This document shows, one piece after another, positions 7,968 to 53,643 of a stretch of 64,000 nucleotides of DNA. The DNA is from Gemmatimonadota bacterium (lineage in GTDB: Bacteria > Gemmatimonadota > Gemmatimonadetes > Longimicrobiales > Gaopeijiaceae): NCBI GenBank assembly GCA_022823225.1, contig JAJDXM010000009.1:62001-126000 (forward strand), given 5' to 3'. Position 1 is the stretch's first letter. Every line of letters starts with the position of its first letter. Made by a program: the position numbers and the translations under genes. The notes under the pieces are model-generated. The model did not search any database. It was not told the DNA's origin and worked only from the letters and a program-made list of their open reading frames with translations.

Positions 7968-8016
7968 GCAGCCTGCAGAATAGGTCCCCGCTGCATTCGG
8001 CTGGCGATGCACCCGG
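7968..8016 (+). repeat. Dispersed intergenic repeat, divergent copy
   Basis: This stretch begins TAGCAGCCTG and runs to GATGCACCCGGG. It aligns over its length with 15443-15491 and 51059-51108 (shared landmarks GCAGCC, CCGC, GCATTCG and GCGATGCA). It is in the 170-bp gap between the heptad-repeat gene and the PQQ dehydrogenase, which converge; nothing else is recognisable in the gap. Confidence 0.55.
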
Positions 8017-15443: not shown

Positions 15444-15685
15444 CAGCCCGTGGACAACCCCCCGCGGCATTCGAGCGGCGATGCATCCGCGTTGGACCGC
15501 TTCGCCGACCCGGTCGCACTGTAATGTCTGCTTTACAAGATGTAATGTTCTCTTTACATATCACATCCTCAAGGCTCCGCTCGTCGTTGCCTTTCGGACG
15601 AATATCGCCGCTATTCGCCTCTCAAGGCGCCTTGCCAACGCGGCGCCTCGCCGCTCTCGGTGTTCACGCGGGTTTGTCCACGGAC
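15443..15685. mobile_element. MITE-like block bounded by inverted copies of the dispersed repeat
   Basis: The left end GCAGCCCGTGGACAACCCCC (15443 onward) and the right end, read in reverse (GCAGTCCGTGGACAAACCCG), match at 18 of 20 positions. They bound a 243-bp segment with no coding capacity. The left unit starts exactly at the phoU stop codon. The interior holds two tandem TGTAA-N8-TTACA palindromes (15520-15558) and a perfect hairpin CGAATA...TATTCG near 15599-15617. No target duplication is evident. It fills nearly all the gap between phoU and pstC. Confidence 0.5.
15520..15558. promoter_or_regulatory. Tandem TGTAA-N8-TTACA palindromes (PadR-operator-like)
   Basis: TGTAATGTCTGCTTTACA (15520-15537) and TGTAATGTTCTCTTTACA (15541-15558) are two 18-bp imperfect palindromes at a 21-bp step, two helical turns. 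Their TGTAA/TTACA arms match the kind of operator bound by PadR-family repressors. They lie between phoU and pstC inside the MITE-like block. A related site is at 58261-58301. No PadR gene is in the window. Confidence 0.5.
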
Positions 15686-46740: not shown

Positions 46741-47964
46741 CTAACTGATTCCGCGAAAGAACGGATTCTGATACCTGCGGTCGTCGATCACCCGGAAATC
46801 CGTCAGGGTCATGAGAAACCTCACCAGCGCGACCTTTTCCTCGTCGGTGAAGCTGAATTGGAAAGGCTCGCCGTGCTCGTCCCGGAGCAGGTGGTGGAGG
46901 TTCGGGTGGTCCTGAATGCCGCTGCTGTAGTGTTCCACGACCTCCAGAAGCGTCCCGAAGCGCCCGTCGTGCATGTACGGGGGCCAGATGGCGATGTTTC
47001 GCAGCGACGGAGCCTTGAACTTCCCTTCGTCCTCCGGGTTGCCCGTCACCTCGCCGATTCCGGCATCCGGGCGTAGTCCGGGACCGAGGCCGTTGTTCGC
47101 GGGGGCGCGAGTAACGAACGCCTCGGATATGTGGCAATTCGCGCAAGCTACGGGACGGGAGCCCGGATCCATGAACAGCGATTTCCCGAGATTCTCCTCG
47201 TCGGTGAAGTTGGGAAACGGATCCAGGGGACTGTCGACCTGCACGCGTCCGCGGTCGTAGTTGGCGCCCGCGGTGACGATACTGCGCTGGAACTGGGCGA
47301 GGGCGCGTGCGATCCGGTCCGGCGTGACCGTGGCGTCGCCGAAGGCATCTTCGAACAGCTCTGGGTAGTAGTGCTTCGATTCGACGATGGACACCAGCCG
47401 TTCGAGCGTCAGCCCCATCTCCAACGGGTCCTGGATCGGCATGAGCGCCTGCTCCTCCAGCGAAGGCGCGCGCTCGTCCCGGAAGAACCTGTCCGACCGG
47501 TAGAAACGGATGTTCAGGAGACTCATGGCGGTGCGGCGGGTCGCTCCCCCGACCCCGACGCTGAAGCGCAGTCCGTCCGTAAAGCTCAGGTCGACATCGT
47601 GACACGTTGCACAGGCGACGTCCCCGTTCGAGCTCAGCGACGTATCGTAGAAGAGAACCCGGCCCAGCCTTGCTCCGTAGTTGGTTACCGGATTGTCTGC
47701 GGGCATGTTGTCGAGGTCGATCGCGGCCCTCTGGTGACTGAACTCCGGGGGAAAGCCGTTGGTCCGATAGTGCCTGGGGATCGCGACCCCCGCGTAATCG
47801 TAGGGCTCTTCGGGCAGAACGAGTGACACCGGGATTTCGGGGAACTCCGGCTCCACCGGATCGGAGCCTCCCTGACAGGCGCCCGCCGCGGTGGCCAGCG
47901 CCGCGATGACAATGAAGTGGCGGGGGTCGGGCCCGGCCAGCGCGGGCCTCTTGTGAGTGTTCAT
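46741..47964 (-). CDS. Di-haem cytochrome c peroxidase / MauG family lipoprotein
   Basis: The product (407 residues from ATG 47964, or 413 from ATG 47982) has a signal with a lipobox-like TAAGACQGG. Two haem-attachment motifs, CATCH and CANCH, sit in the order of the MauG/CcpA family: GARLGRVLFYDTSLSSNGDVACATCH and, later, FMDPGSRPVACANCH. The later FKAPSLRNIAIWPPYMHDGRF segment is also typical. These proteins reduce peroxide or oxidise protein substrates in the periplasm. The FmdB gene starts divergently, 3-21 bp away, so the promoters must overlap the coding ends. Confidence 0.9.
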   Translation of the reverse strand: MNTHKRPALAGPDPRHFIVIAALATAAGACQGGSDPVEPEFPEIPVSLVLPEEPYDYAGVAIPRHYRTNGFPPEFSHQRAAIDLDNMPADNPVTNYGARLGRVLFYDTSLSSNGDVACATCHDVDLSFTDGLRFSVGVGGATRRTAMSLLNIRFYRSDRFFRDERAPSLEEQALMPIQDPLEMGLTLERLVSIVESKHYYPELFEDAFGDATVTPDRIARALAQFQRSIVTAGANYDRGRVQVDSPLDPFPNFTDEENLGKSLFMDPGSRPVACANCHISEAFVTRAPANNGLGPGLRPDAGIGEVTGNPEDEGKFKAPSLRNIAIWPPYMHDGRFGTLLEVVEHYSSGIQDHPNLHHLLRDEHGEPFQFSFTDEEKVALVRFLMTLTDFRVIDDRRYQNPFFRGIS

Positions 47965-47985
47965 CGTCTCGCCTACCTTCATCCG

Positions 47986-48281: not shown

Positions 48282-49763
48282 GTGAGTTCCAACCCCGGCC
48301 TGAGCCGGCAACTCGGTCTCCTCGGCCTCACGGCGACCGGCATCTGCGCGATGCTCGGGGCAGCGATCAACGTCATCCCGATCATGCTGCAGCGGAACGT
48401 CCCGGGGATCGGGCCCCACGTGATGTCCGCATACGTCTTCGCGGCGCTCCCCGCGCTCCTGGCCGCGCTCGCCTACGCCAGCCTGGCCTCCGCCATGCCG
48501 CGCGCCGGCGGCAGCTACGTCTACGTCAGCCGGTCGCTCAGCCCCTACTGGGGATTCGTGGCCAGCTTCTCGCAGTGGTTCGGACTCTCGATCGCGATCG
48601 GGGTCGTCTCCTATGTCCTCATCCCCTTCATCCGGGACATCGCGGACGCCGTCGGCTGGACCGGCACGGCCGAGGCCCTGGACACCGGACCGGTGCGCGT
48701 CGGCCTCGCCCTGGGCTTCCTGTGGGCCTTCGTGCTGGTCAACCTGCGTGGTCTCGGCGCCTACCAGATCACCCTTGTGCCGATGATGTTCCTGATGTTC
48801 GCGCTGGGGAGCGTCGTGATCGTGGCGGGATTCCTGTTCGATCACGCGGACTTCGCGGCGGCGCTGGCCAGCACGGAAGGCCGCGCGGTTCCCCCCGAGC
48901 CCGACGTCCCCTTCCGCCTCGGCCCCTTCCTCGCGGCCTCGGCGCTGCTCTTCTCGTCGTTCATCGGCTTCGACTCGATCGCGCAGGCGGGGGGCGAGGC
49001 GCGGCGGCCGGGCCGCAACCTCCCACTCGCGACGGGCCTCGCGGTGGTCACGGTGGGCACCTTCTACCTCCTCTTCACGGCGGCCATCTACCACGCGATC
49101 CCGTGGCCCTTCGTGGCCGAGGAGGCACAGCTGCGAGACCTCACCGCGCCGGGCCTCCTCGGATACCTCCTCCCTGCCGGCTGGACGGTGGCGATCGTCG
49201 CGGGCGCGGCAATCGCGCTGATCAACGACCTCCCCGCGATGCTGCTGGCGGTCTCGCGCCTCATCTTCGCGTGGGGCAATGACGGGATCTTCCCGCGCCG
49301 GATGGCGGCGGTGAACGCGCGCTGGCGCACCCCCCACGCGGCGCTGGTCGCGAGCGGCCTGATGGCGTCGGTGGGCATCGTGGGAAGCCACTTCGCGGGC
49401 GACTTCTTCCTCGGGATCGACATCCTCGTCACGTCGATGCTCGTCAATTTCCTGCTCATGTCGCTGTCGCTGGTCACCCTTGCCTGGCGGAACCCGGAAC
49501 GCGCGGCCGGCATGAAGGTGCTGCGTGGCCGCGCGGGCCAGCGGATCGCGGGCGGGGCGGGCATCGCGCTGCTCGGTGTCTTTCTCGTCGTCCACATCCA
49601 CAAGGACCTGACCGCCGACGTGGGCGCGTGGTACTTTCACTCCACCTGGGTCTGGCTCGGCGTGATGGCGATCGCGTCGGCGATCTTCTTCCGTGGCGTT
49701 GCACGCCTGCGACGAGCCGGAACCGACATCCGCACCCTCTTCCGCGAGCTGCCGCGGGGCTGA
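48282..49763 (+). CDS. APC-family amino acid permease
   Basis: The 493-residue product has about twelve hydrophobic segments. The first is LGLLGLTATGICAMLGAAINVIP with the unwound TM1 Gly pattern of APC transporters, and GFDSIAQAGGEARRPGRNLP is the typical TM6-TM7 loop. Substrate unknown. GTG start; the FmdB gene ends 44 bp before. Confidence 0.85.
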   Translation: MSSNPGLSRQLGLLGLTATGICAMLGAAINVIPIMLQRNVPGIGPHVMSAYVFAALPALLAALAYASLASAMPRAGGSYVYVSRSLSPYWGFVASFSQWFGLSIAIGVVSYVLIPFIRDIADAVGWTGTAEALDTGPVRVGLALGFLWAFVLVNLRGLGAYQITLVPMMFLMFALGSVVIVAGFLFDHADFAAALASTEGRAVPPEPDVPFRLGPFLAASALLFSSFIGFDSIAQAGGEARRPGRNLPLATGLAVVTVGTFYLLFTAAIYHAIPWPFVAEEAQLRDLTAPGLLGYLLPAGWTVAIVAGAAIALINDLPAMLLAVSRLIFAWGNDGIFPRRMAAVNARWRTPHAALVASGLMASVGIVGSHFAGDFFLGIDILVTSMLVNFLLMSLSLVTLAWRNPERAAGMKVLRGRAGQRIAGGAGIALLGVFLVVHIHKDLTADVGAWYFHSTWVWLGVMAIASAIFFRGVARLRRAGTDIRTLFRELPRG

Positions 49764-49901: not shown

Positions 49902-51059
49902 ATGTCGGATCCCTACCGGGAAGCCACGCGCCACGAACGCACTGGCATGTCCACGCTCGCCAAGGTCTTTCTCGTCGGAGGGGGGCTGGTTGCGACCATC
50001 GTTGTCGCTTTGTCCATTTGGGCGATCATCGCCTGGCGGGCCGCCATGGACGAGTGGAGCGAGTACTGGGAGGAGGAGCGGATCGAGCTCGTCCGCGAAG
50101 CGGAGGCCTTGCGCGAAATGGATCTCGCGCGTGAAGTGGAGGCCGTGCGCGAAATGGACCTCACGCGTGAAATGGAGGGGCTCGCGCGTGAACTGGAGGA
50201 GGCCTTGCGTGAACTGGAAGTCTCCCGCGAATTGGAGGCCTTTCGCGAAGCGGAAGCCGGTCGTGAGGCGGCGACCAGGCGCGAAACGGAGTTCGCGCGT
50301 GCCGAGGTAGCCGAGGCTTCGGCAAGGCTGGCCGACCTGAGAGCGGAGATCTTGCGCCGGGAGATGGAGGTCGCGGAGGCCGCCGCCAACGCCTCGGCCA
50401 CCACACCGGCTGCGAATGTGTCGGCGTCCCGGCGGTCGAGCGCGGACGACCAGGAACCGGTGGCGGAAGAACTCAAGCGCGCGGTTGTGTCGGTGTTGCA
50501 GAACGCATTCGACGACCAGGCCTTCGAACTGAGTCCCGCCGAGTCCGGATTCGGCATCGAGGTCACGCCCCGGGAGGGGTCCGTGAAGCGACTGGGTCTG
50601 GACTTCGTTTCCGTGGGCGAACTCCTGGACAGGGCGGCGCGGGGCGAATCGGTCCTTGCGGGCGTGGATCGAAGCGATGAGGCGCGGCGGGACCGGGAAG
50701 ACGATGGCTGGGTCCCCGATTGGGTTCCGGTCTTCCCCAACTCCTACTCCAGTGACAGCTTCGCGGCCACTGTGGACGGCCTGTCCATTGGCGGTGCGGT
50801 TTTTGTGGCGGACGCCCGCGGTCACGGGATCCTCGATTGGTATAGCCGCACCGCGCAGCGGATGTCCCGCGAGGGAACGGACTTCAAGATCAGGTACACC
50901 CGCAACCGGGAGGACCGGGACCAGGACCTGCGAAACGATCTGGGGCGCTACGCCATGCTGTGGGACGGGCGCGTCATTTCGGTGTTCGTGATCGAGGACC
51001 ACCACGGCGACAGCCTCTTCGTCCTGCTGTACAAGGAGACGGCAGAGGCCGAAGGGTAG
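49902..51059 (+). CDS. Membrane-anchored protein with coiled coil and WVPxxP domain (paralog A)
   Basis: The 385-residue product begins MSDPYREATRHERTG, then has a membrane helix (about residues 23-46). A long charged coiled coil with repeats of REM/REL (about 50-150, coded by near-tandem DNA) follows, then a linker and a C-terminal domain (about 270-385). That domain contains WVPDWVPVFP and GHGILDWY and ends in VFVIEDHHGDSLFVLLYKE. The family is not recognised. The neighbour at 51258 shares the N-terminal MSDxYxEATRH and the same C-terminal layout. ATG 49902 is chosen because the GGAGG lies before it and because the paralog starts the same way. Confidence 0.75.
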   Translation: MSDPYREATRHERTGMSTLAKVFLVGGGLVATIVVALSIWAIIAWRAAMDEWSEYWEEERIELVREAEALREMDLAREVEAVREMDLTREMEGLARELEEALRELEVSRELEAFREAEAGREAATRRETEFARAEVAEASARLADLRAEILRREMEVAEAAANASATTPAANVSASRRSSADDQEPVAEELKRAVVSVLQNAFDDQAFELSPAESGFGIEVTPREGSVKRLGLDFVSVGELLDRAARGESVLAGVDRSDEARRDREDDGWVPDWVPVFPNSYSSDSFAATVDGLSIGGAVFVADARGHGILDWYSRTAQRMSREGTDFKIRYTRNREDRDQDLRNDLGRYAMLWDGRVISVFVIEDHHGDSLFVLLYKETAEAEG

Positions 51060-51108
51060 CAGCCGGGGGAATGTGCCGCTGCCGCATTCGGGTAGCGAAG
51101 CATCCGGT
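51059..51108 (+). repeat. Dispersed intergenic repeat copy
   Basis: Starts at the stop codon of paralog A (TAGCAGCCG) and runs through GCATTCGGGTAGCGAAGCATCCGG. It aligns with 15443-15491 and 7968-8016. Like the copy after phoU, its first base coincides with the TAG stop. Confidence 0.55.
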
Positions 51109-51257
51109 CCGGATCGCGGTGCTCGCGGTCCGCGCGCACCTGCGGATCGACGACGGGCGACGGACCAGGCCGGCCCTCGCGGGGTGTCGCCCACATCGTG
51201 TAGGTTGAGTGGCGGCCTGACCGATCGGCGACACCAACCGTTGCGCGGGAGAGCATG

Positions 51258-52094
51258 ATGTCGGATCTGTACAGCGAAGCCACGCGGCACGACTACATCA
51301 AGGTGCCGAGGTACCTGATCTTTCTCGGGGGTGGACTCGTGGCGGTCCTCTTTGTGGCCATGGGCCTGTGGATGACCGTGACCACCGAGGAGGCGGTGGT
51401 GGAGCCGCTCGAGACGGTCGAGGAGGCGGAATTCAGGCGCATTGCTGCGCGGGTCGCCGCGGTTAGAGCGGTTGCCCCGGATCCTGCGTTGTCGGAACGG
51501 CGACCGATCCGGGCCAGGCTGACCCGGGAGATTGCCAGTGGCCGGGAACTCGCCGAGGCTATCGCCGCGGTGTGGGCCGAGGTCGGATTGGAGGAAGGGG
51601 CCAGCGTCCTCGCTGTTGAGGAGACCGCTGAATTCGCGCTTGAGATAAAGCCTCCCAACTGGGACCGGTCCACGACGACGAGGCTCTCCAGCGTCGAGCG
51701 CTACCTGGAGCAGGCCACCCGTGGAGAGACGCGTTTTGGAGGAATGGGCCCAGGGCTTCCCGGGTGGGTACCGGCCTATCCCGGTGCGCGCGGTGTCCTC
51801 CATAGCAGTCAGGGGTCGGCTTCTATTCCGGGCTACTCGGCTTTTGTGGTGGACGCGGGCGCCGAGGAGGTCGTCGACTGGTATCAGCAAGTGGCAGATT
51901 TCATGAACCAGCAAGACGCGGATGGGTCCGCGCAGGCCGCGGGGATGGTGGAGACGGTTCGCATGCAACCGGACGCCGGGGTTCGGGAGCGCTTTGCGAT
52001 GAAATGGCGGGACCGATTCCTGCTCCTTGTCGCCACCGAAGACGAACTCGGCAGCAGCCTTTTCATCCTCTTCTTCAGCCGCGGGGACGCATAG
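51258..52094 (+). CDS. Membrane-anchored protein with WVPxYPGA domain (paralog B)
   Basis: The 278-residue product begins MSDLYSEATRHDYIK, has a membrane helix (about residues 18-40) and a C-terminal domain with GWVPAYPGARG, VVDWYQQVADFM and SLFILFFSRGD. It is paralogous to the gene upstream but lacks most of the coiled coil. The conserved WVPxYPxA and DWY points define a shared domain of unknown function. A second ATG one codon upstream (51255) is possible. Confidence 0.75.
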   Translation: MSDLYSEATRHDYIKVPRYLIFLGGGLVAVLFVAMGLWMTVTTEEAVVEPLETVEEAEFRRIAARVAAVRAVAPDPALSERRPIRARLTREIASGRELAEAIAAVWAEVGLEEGASVLAVEETAEFALEIKPPNWDRSTTTRLSSVERYLEQATRGETRFGGMGPGLPGWVPAYPGARGVLHSSQGSASIPGYSAFVVDAGAEEVVDWYQQVADFMNQQDADGSAQAAGMVETVRMQPDAGVRERFAMKWRDRFLLLVATEDELGSSLFILFFSRGDA

Positions 52095-52116: not shown

Positions 52117-53643
52117 ATGTCGACCGGCCACATGGACGACGAATCCCGCTCCGTGGAAGACCCCCGCACCCCCCTCGCGCCCGGCCTCGATATCTCCCGG
52201 ATCGTCACCGGGCTCTGGCAGGTGGCCGACCAGGAGCGGGCCGGGGTGCCGCTGGATCCCGGGGCGGCCGCCGACGCCATGGCCGACTACGCCGACGCCG
52301 GCCTCACGACCTTCGACATGGCCGACCACTACGGCTCGGCCGAGGTGATCGCGGGGACCTTCGCCGCCGGTCGCAACGACGCGCAGCTTCTCACCAAGTG
52401 GGTGCCGGAGCCGGGGCCTGCAAGTGAGGAGGCCGTGGACGAGGCCGTGGCGCGCGCCCTTGAACGGCTGGGCACCGACCGCATCGACCTCCTGCAGTTC
52501 CACGCCTGGAACTATGCCGATCCCAGCTGGCTGGACTGCCTTTTCATGCTGGCCGAACACCAGGCGGCGGGCCGCATCCGGCATCTGGGGCTGACCAACT
52601 GCGACGCGGTACACCTCGACATGGCCGTGCGTAGCGGCGTGCCCATTGCCTCGAATCAGGTGTGCTTTTCGCTGCTGGACCGGCGGGCCGCCGGGGCGAT
52701 GACCGAGGTCTGCCGAACCCACGGCGTCCGGCTTCTCGCGTATGGGACCCTGGCCGGCGGCTTCCTGAGCGAGCGCTGGCTGGGGCGTGCCGAGCCTCCG
52801 ATCGACGAATCGCTGACCTGGTCGCAGATGAAGTACCGCCGCTTCATCGACCAGGCAGGGGGGTGGGAGCGCCTTCAGGGGTTGCTGCGCGTGATGGACG
52901 GCGTGGCGCGGCGCACCCGGATGACCGGCGACCCTAACGTTACGTCAGGGTTGGATGGCGCGCCGACGGGCGTGTCGATCGCCAACGTGGCCTGCCGCTA
53001 CGTCCTGGAGCACCCGGCGGTGGCCGGGATCATCGTCGGAGCACGCCTTGGCGAATCCAGCCACATTGGCGACAACCTCAATGTCTTTCGCTTTTCGCTG
53101 GACGACGACGCCCGGCGCGAACTGGACGCCGCCTGCGCCGAGCTCGACCCGATCGGCGGCGACTGCGGCGACGAGTACCGGCGACCCCCCTACCTCACCG
53201 CCTCCGGCGACCTCAGCGACCACCTCACCACGCTCCCACCACCCTACCCGGTGCACCGCTGCGGCGCTGGCGAGCATGTCTCCACCGGCACGCCCTGGGA
53301 AGCGCTGGCGGGGTTCAGCCGCGCGGTGCGAAGGGGCGGCCGCATTTACGTCGCGGGCACCACGGCTTCGCATGGCGACCGCCTGATCGGGGGACGCGAC
53401 CCTGCCGCGCAGACGCACTTCATCATCGACAAGATCGAGGGAGCGCTGCAGTCCCTCTGCGCGACCCTGCAGGACGTGGTGCGCACGCGCGTGTACATCC
53501 GCAACGGGGTCGACTGGGAGAGTGTCGCGCGTGCCCACGGGGCGCGCTTCGCCGGGATCCGGCCCGCCAACACCACGGTGCATGCGGATACCGTGGGTGA
53601 GGACCTGCTGGTCGAGATCGAGGCCGACGCGGAGGTGTCGTGA
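52117..53643 (+). CDS. Aldo/keto reductase fused to a RidA domain
   Basis: The 508-residue product has two parts. Residues about 20-350 are an aldo/keto reductase: the catalytic tetrad is visible as Asp and Tyr in FDMADHYGSAE, Lys in LLTKWVP and His in LLQFHAWNY, and the NADPH-binding GARLGESSHIGDN lies near residue 308. Residues about 385-505 are a RidA-like domain (GFSRAVRRGGRIYVAGTTA, ALQSLCATLQDVVRTRVYI, NTTVHADTV). A fusion suggests that the enamine or imine made or consumed by one domain is handled by the other. The start is weakly supported; ATG 52132 is also possible. GTG of the next gene overlaps its stop. Confidence 0.82.
   Translation: MSTGHMDDESRSVEDPRTPLAPGLDISRIVTGLWQVADQERAGVPLDPGAAADAMADYADAGLTTFDMADHYGSAEVIAGTFAAGRNDAQLLTKWVPEPGPASEEAVDEAVARALERLGTDRIDLLQFHAWNYADPSWLDCLFMLAEHQAAGRIRHLGLTNCDAVHLDMAVRSGVPIASNQVCFSLLDRRAAGAMTEVCRTHGVRLLAYGTLAGGFLSERWLGRAEPPIDESLTWSQMKYRRFIDQAGGWERLQGLLRVMDGVARRTRMTGDPNVTSGLDGAPTGVSIANVACRYVLEHPAVAGIIVGARLGESSHIGDNLNVFRFSLDDDARRELDAACAELDPIGGDCGDEYRRPPYLTASGDLSDHLTTLPPPYPVHRCGAGEHVSTGTPWEALAGFSRAVRRGGRIYVAGTTASHGDRLIGGRDPAAQTHFIIDKIEGALQSLCATLQDVVRTRVYIRNGVDWESVARAHGARFAGIRPANTTVHADTVGEDLLVEIEADAEVS

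Follow-up and report, generated by a model that had tools for sequence, protein, structure and literature searches.

Two adjacent genes on the forward strand, here called A and B, lie between an amino acid permease gene and a gene for an aldo/keto reductase fused to a RidA-like domain in the 64,000-nucleotide stretch of Gemmatimonadota DNA that we analysed (the window; Table 1). Both open reading frames are present at the coordinates listed. A GGAGG sequence lies shortly before the ATG of A (49902), and the G+C content at codon positions 1, 2 and 3 (0.71, 0.47 and 0.81 in A; 0.69, 0.49 and 0.77 in B) follows a coding-like pattern. Neither protein sequence contains a cysteine.

Table 1. Features of the A/B locus, in window coordinates.
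Feature	Positions	Strand	Basis or content
Amino acid permease (PF13520), upstream neighbour, left edge of the insertion site	48282..49763	+	
Gene A, 385 aa	49902..51059	+	Tail, one TM helix, E/R-rich repetitive spacer, alpha/beta module, C-terminal WVPxxP domain
Membrane helix of A, residues 22-45	49965..50036	+	Hydrophobicity; K/R count (higher before the helix than after it, suggesting N-in/C-out)
E/R-rich repetitive spacer of A (coiled-coil-like by eye), missing in B	50049..50396	+	Repeat analysis
Alpha/beta module of A: helix, three strands, helix in the model	50454..50687	+	Predicted structure
C-terminal domain of A: WVPVFP ... DWY ... beta-rich tail	50715..51056	+	Alignment, tree, predicted structure
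Dispersed intergenic repeat copy between A and B	51061..51130 (core 51084-51107)	+	Alignment, genome pattern search
Gene B, 278 aa	51258..52094	+	Tail, one TM helix, shorter spacer, alpha/beta module, C-terminal WVPxYP domain
Membrane helix of B, residues 19-41	51312..51380	+	Hydrophobicity; model; K/R count
Alpha/beta module of B: H95-109, three strands, H144-154	51528..51725	+	Predicted structure
C-terminal domain of B: WVPAYP ... DWY; beta-beta-alpha-beta-beta-beta-beta in the model	51759..52091	+	Alignment, predicted structure
Aldo/keto reductase fused to RidA-like domain (PF00248 + PF01042), right edge of the site	52117..53643	+	

The original prediction described A and B as paralogues that begin with MSDxYxEATRH, cross the membrane once and share a C-terminal domain with WVPxxP, DWY and a beta-rich tail, and our analyses bear out this description. 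The N-termini read MSDPYREATRH in A and MSDLYSEATRH in B, and BLASTP aligned residues 1-58 of A with 1-56 of B at 40% identity (E 7e-8) and residues 217-378 of A with 126-274 of B at 27% identity (E 3e-14). The ectodomains align with a score of 148, against a mean of 33 and a maximum of 58 in 1000 shuffles. A and B are genuine paralogues. Each has one strongly hydrophobic segment, close to the N-terminus; a second, weak one (1.5) at the C-terminal end of B is a strand in the structural model. The shared C-terminal domain, or head, spans about 110 residues and carries the signature WVPxxP and WY. The coiled coil attributed to A, and absent from B, was recovered as an E/R-rich, repetitive stretch at about residues 50-165, with repeat families D1 and D3, that is coiled-coil-like by eye.

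The head had been taken to belong to no recognised family, and at the sequence level we found the same. Pfam and NCBIfam returned only matches far under their cut-offs for A and none at E <= 5 for B, and the comparison of 28 full-length members with Pfam and of 41 domains with NCBIfam gave weak scattered matches only. The strongest NCBIfam match, to the aspartic protease model TIGR02281 (2 of 41 domains, best E 2e-4), was taken for noise, because the D[ST]G[AS] motif occurs in 0 of the 41 domains and no such match appeared in 10 full-length members, which may not include the two matching ones. No relevant PDB chain was found by sequence or profile, and DUF4097 (PF13349) had no match in A or B. 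The DcrB model PF08786 is absent among the matches of A and B at E <= 5 and of the 28 members at E <= 1, and was found in 0 of 101 phylum genomes, with a positive E. coli control; hhalign against a single E. coli DcrB sequence gave a probability of 0.2%. A clear match of the domain to a described family was looked for, and none was obtained by sequence. Judging from the missing Pfam and NCBIfam matches and from a non-exhaustive literature search, the family has apparently not been described before.

Profile searches with the C-terminal domain uncovered a larger family, confined in our samples to one bacterial family. Searching the window's own genome with B gave five places: B itself, A as two separate pieces, a gene on contig C11, and a weak match (L005, E 0.29) that was dropped. 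The profile search revealed a second family gene on C11, where two divergent family genes lie at about 13.3-14.2 and 16.3-16.7 kb (L102, G000:C11:8000-22000), one of them lipobox-like. Among 59 relatives, own genome included, 18 matched B at E <= 0.01, of which two match outside the C-terminal domain and were left out of the family: G026 (L022, E 8e-3) and G044 (L021, E 2e-3, and 6e-11 after iteration), the latter with a LuxR-type-regulator-like end by eye. A 28-row domain profile (A1) matched 16 of 298 phylum genomes at E <= 0.001, and a 41-row profile (A6) matched 26 of 395 at E <= 0.01. Two of these 26, G118 and G353 (L135 and L136, E about 0.007-0.008), were discounted as noise, being by eye out-of-frame, arginine-rich ORFs. 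The 24 accepted genomes all come from the window's own bacterial family, 19 of them among the 23 of the genus (G000-G022) and 5 others, with 1-7 A6 matches per matching genome; these matches arise partly by construction, since the profile rows were drawn from the same genomes. In a control with reversed ORFs, A6 had 0 matches among 4244 at E <= 0.01, against 188 forward, a number in which the same genes are counted repeatedly. Three named family loci are in Gemmatimonadetes MAGs. No plasmid was found by tblastn with the domain of B, and the 19 and 26 pattern matches in viral contigs yielded zero confirmed cases. In the phylum genomes, viral contigs and plasmids sampled, the family is therefore apparently specific to one Gemmatimonadota lineage of family rank.

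The survey of neighbours gave the family a history. In eight genomes (G000, G005, G007, G008, G012, G019, G021 and G022) family genes follow the permease, precede the reductase-RidA gene, or both, and between these two genes they form an array of 1-4 members. Of 19 regions compared, six have permease-reductase gaps of 917-3815 bases with family genes inside, ten have gaps of 8-105 bases with no room for one, and three were left unscored, because no permease was found (G021), the contig ends (G005) or only a fragment of the permease is present, where the contig begins (G013, gap 127). Family genes occupy a junction at which the flanking genes sit close together in relatives. In the reductase tree the seven array-bearing rows fall on one side of a single branch (support 90/91, below the starred level), which makes one filling of the site the simplest reading within the sampled genus; a single gain is supported, though not shown, by this tree. 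The unscored G013 is placed among the array-bearing rows and has perhaps lost its array genes. The one-frame reductase-RidA fusion has a match at E <= 1e-60 in 18 of the 23 genus genomes and is in two pieces in G018. On the other side, a di-haem cytochrome c peroxidase gene (CCP_MauG, 46741-47982, minus strand) lies upstream of the permease.

Given this position, the array might encode accessory subunits of the permease next to it, held in the membrane and binding or regulatory in the periplasm. The array follows the permease gene directly and in the same orientation, and 22 bases separate the end of B from the ATG that we chose for the reductase (52117). At 15 loci away from the array site, a gene of an SSF sodium:solute symporter cluster was found nearby in 11 and a metallopeptidase-like gene in 10, counts that depend on a simple gene caller and on cluster names taken from one representative each (Pfam). 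Yet the permease is kept in ten genomes with no adjacent family gene, G021 has an array while its permease was not found, and at the other loci the metallopeptidase-like gene often lies in between and the strands differ. We consider a role as permease accessory improbable.

The tree of the 41 domain rows places B beside the last array position of G008, G012 and G021 and a single gene from each of G007 and G019 (100/100); A joins position 3 of G008 and G005 (97/91). The array genes of G008 overlap or are 10-33 bases apart; the gap between A and B is about 195 bases and contains the dispersed repeat. Residues 220-262 of A agree better with position 3 (21/40 and 23/39, against 15/42 to 16/42 and 15/43), and its membrane helix and spacer match position 1. 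The idea that A is a chimera of positions 1 and 3 was dropped, because a loss of the spacer in position 3 explains the pattern equally.

The array proteins could also be rapidly evolving surface or receptor-like proteins, such as phage decoys or antigens, maintained as a changing array. The variable copy number and the mixture in A of features from two array positions would fit, as would the Nei-Gojobori dN/dS ratios, which are higher in ten array-site pairs (0.27-0.52) than in five single-locus pairs (0.15-0.25). However, all 15 ratios (0.153-0.523) are well below 1 and show constraint on the family, W and Y are invariant in 41 members, where several P, V, G and W columns are nearly so, and an inner-membrane anchor is an unlikely location for a decoy. 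Of the explanations considered here, this is the one to which we give least credence.

What the head may look like was addressed with AF2 models of whole B and of the ectodomain of A, run separately with 12 related sequences each. The two models agree in the order of their elements, an alpha/beta module followed by beta-beta-alpha-beta-beta-beta-beta, at modest confidence (mean pLDDT 61.4 for B and 70.8 for the A ectodomain). Over ten-residue blocks of the C-terminal domain, pLDDT is 72-88 in A, except for 141-150 (61) and 151-160 (47), and 71-87 in B, except for 181-190 (61) and 221-230 (51). For both models the top three VIA-align matches were PA1624 (A, Z 10.1, 3.5 A over 110 residues; B, Z 8.3, 2.9 A over 103), DcrB (A, Z 9.1, 3.6 A over 93; B, Z 7.9, 3.0 A over 90) and SciW (A, Z 8.0, 4.6 A over 91; B, Z 7.5, 3.2 A over 88). 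VIA-align commonly reports best Z values of 7-8 even for proteins with no kinship, and with START/Bet v 1-like chains next at Z of about 5-7, the three stand only a little above unrelated rows. At E <= 0.001 neither model had a Foldseek match, nor was there one in the viral structure library. These models point to a moderate likeness to the Mog1p/PsbP fold: the head probably adopts such a (DcrB-like) fold, a likeness of structure and not of sequence that is as yet unproven.

BamC is a lipoprotein subunit of the BAM complex, and chains C of BAM complexes reached Z 5.7 and 5.0 for the B model and were not among the 50 rows listed for A. Eag chaperones are located in the cytosol. Proteins of the Eag group, to which SciW and EagT6 belong, are described as T6SS chaperones that stabilise effector membrane segments; SciW ranks near the top of both structure lists, but A and B are anchored and apparently outward-facing, and no secretion genes were recognised among the 15 neighbour proteins scanned. 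These comprise five of the window (permease, reductase-RidA, HAD hydrolase, di-haem peroxidase and FKBP) and ten at other loci; among the ten no T6SS part was recognised and two proteins had no match at all, and no T6SS effector or PAAR protein was recognised in either set. DcrB is described as a membrane-anchored periplasmic protein of the Mog1p/PsbP family, and the N-terminal domain of PA1624 has been likened to DcrB (PMC7716261). Like DcrB (DUF1795, PF08786), A and B combine a membrane anchor with a predicted alpha/beta head, but they share no sequence match with it, use a TM helix instead of a lipid anchor and possess an extra alpha/beta module, a spacer and the WVPxxP/WY signature. The N-terminal lipid-modified cysteine of DcrB is absent from A and B, and one of 44 members looks lipobox-like by eye. 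The N-terminal domain of Pseudomonas aeruginosa PA1624 (6td9) is the best structural match of both models, at 8% identity; PA1624 is periplasmic, as the heads of A and B are predicted to be, but it differs in having two domains, the second OmpA-like, and no membrane anchor, according to the same source (PMC7716261).

The anchors of the family are diverse and its heads are apparently held outside the cytosol. By eye, the 44 members inspected comprise 38 with a TM helix, five with a signal-peptide-like start, two of which have AAAQ or AEAQ in the C-region, and the single lipobox-like protein, and 91-233 residues separate the anchor from the domain. Lysines and arginines are more numerous before the helix than after it in 17 of 17 TM-anchored members of the array clade, and, less clearly, among 21 TM-anchored members outside it they are so in 14, equal in six and opposite in one. 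This excess suggests an N-in/C-out topology for proteins of the A and B type, which is supported but not shown by the charge counts. The N-terminal tail is among the best-conserved parts of 12 array-type members, and of the 29 rows that the first 48 residues of A retrieved from 26 genomes, 27 are family members (with the query counted) and two are weak; in secreted paralogues the tail motif is lost or blurred.

A conserved tail inside and a domain outside might indicate envelope-stress sensors, with the head sensing the state of the periplasm and the tail relaying it, as proposed for Toastrack in PSP-like systems. Toastrack is proposed to help assemble stress-sensing and signalling complexes (PMC11237479). 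Besides the near specificity of the tail to the family, this would fit five outlying members from other genera (L050, L051, L132-L134), which by eye have beta-rich repeats of about 21 residues ahead of the head: DUF4097 passes its cut-off in L133 (27.7 bits against 22.9), is weak in L132 and L050 (E 0.0013 and 0.055) and has no match in L051 and L134. A DUF4097 (Toastrack)-like repeat region and a WVP head are combined in one protein in L133 (847-1824), L132 and L050. Toastrack proteins resemble the family in a TM region followed by a beta-rich part, but A and B end in the WVP domain and DUF4097 matches neither. None of the 15 neighbour proteins scanned was recognised as a kinase, sigma factor or regulator, and the blurring of the tail in secreted paralogues also speaks against a relay. 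A sensory role is in our opinion unlikely.

We tentatively favour, with a probability of roughly 0.4, the view that A and B are members of a protein family that is specific to their lineage, is tethered to the inner membrane and faces the periplasm, and whose DcrB-like head serves as adaptor or chaperone. The short conserved tail would be cytosolic, the single helix would anchor the protein in the inner membrane, and a spacer of variable kind and length would carry the alpha/beta module. The C-terminal head, of probable Mog1p/PsbP fold, would then bind an envelope partner and, held at the membrane, serve other envelope proteins as an adaptor or chaperone; none of the 15 neighbours scanned names such a partner. 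A family member would have been copied into the gap between permease and aldo-keto reductase and duplicated there, giving the present pair. Among functions, an adaptor or chaperone-like role in envelope upkeep seems the most likely, although we only infer it.

A wider interpretation, which is possible though less likely than not, would extend this view to an unnamed modular envelope family in which one head is joined to interchangeable anchors (TM helix, signal peptide or lipobox) and spacers (Toastrack-like beta repeats, coiled coil or short linker). Its gene would have moved once into a tight transport-metabolism cluster and grown there into a part-exchanging array of periplasmic adaptors that differ in reach. 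In either case, genes that would otherwise be merely hypothetical, in a poorly studied phylum, gain a head domain, together with a fold that can be tested and an account of their evolution. They represent a real, constrained and apparently lineage-specific family of paralogues, with a probable known fold in a new setting. This settles no long-standing question, and function is inferred, but the site that is empty in close relatives illustrates how a single envelope gene may enter a gene cluster and then multiply.

The intergenic sequence between A and B had also been said to hold a dispersed repeat, and the genome-wide pattern search confirmed it. Its core, GCATTCGNNCGGCGANGCATCCGG, occurs 44 times in the genome when up to 2 mismatches are allowed (19 forward, 25 reverse), against one forward and none reverse for the control, the core pattern read backwards. 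Three copies of the core lie in the window (7993-8016, 15467-15490 and 51084-51107), and another copy of the repeat is found upstream of the array in L035.
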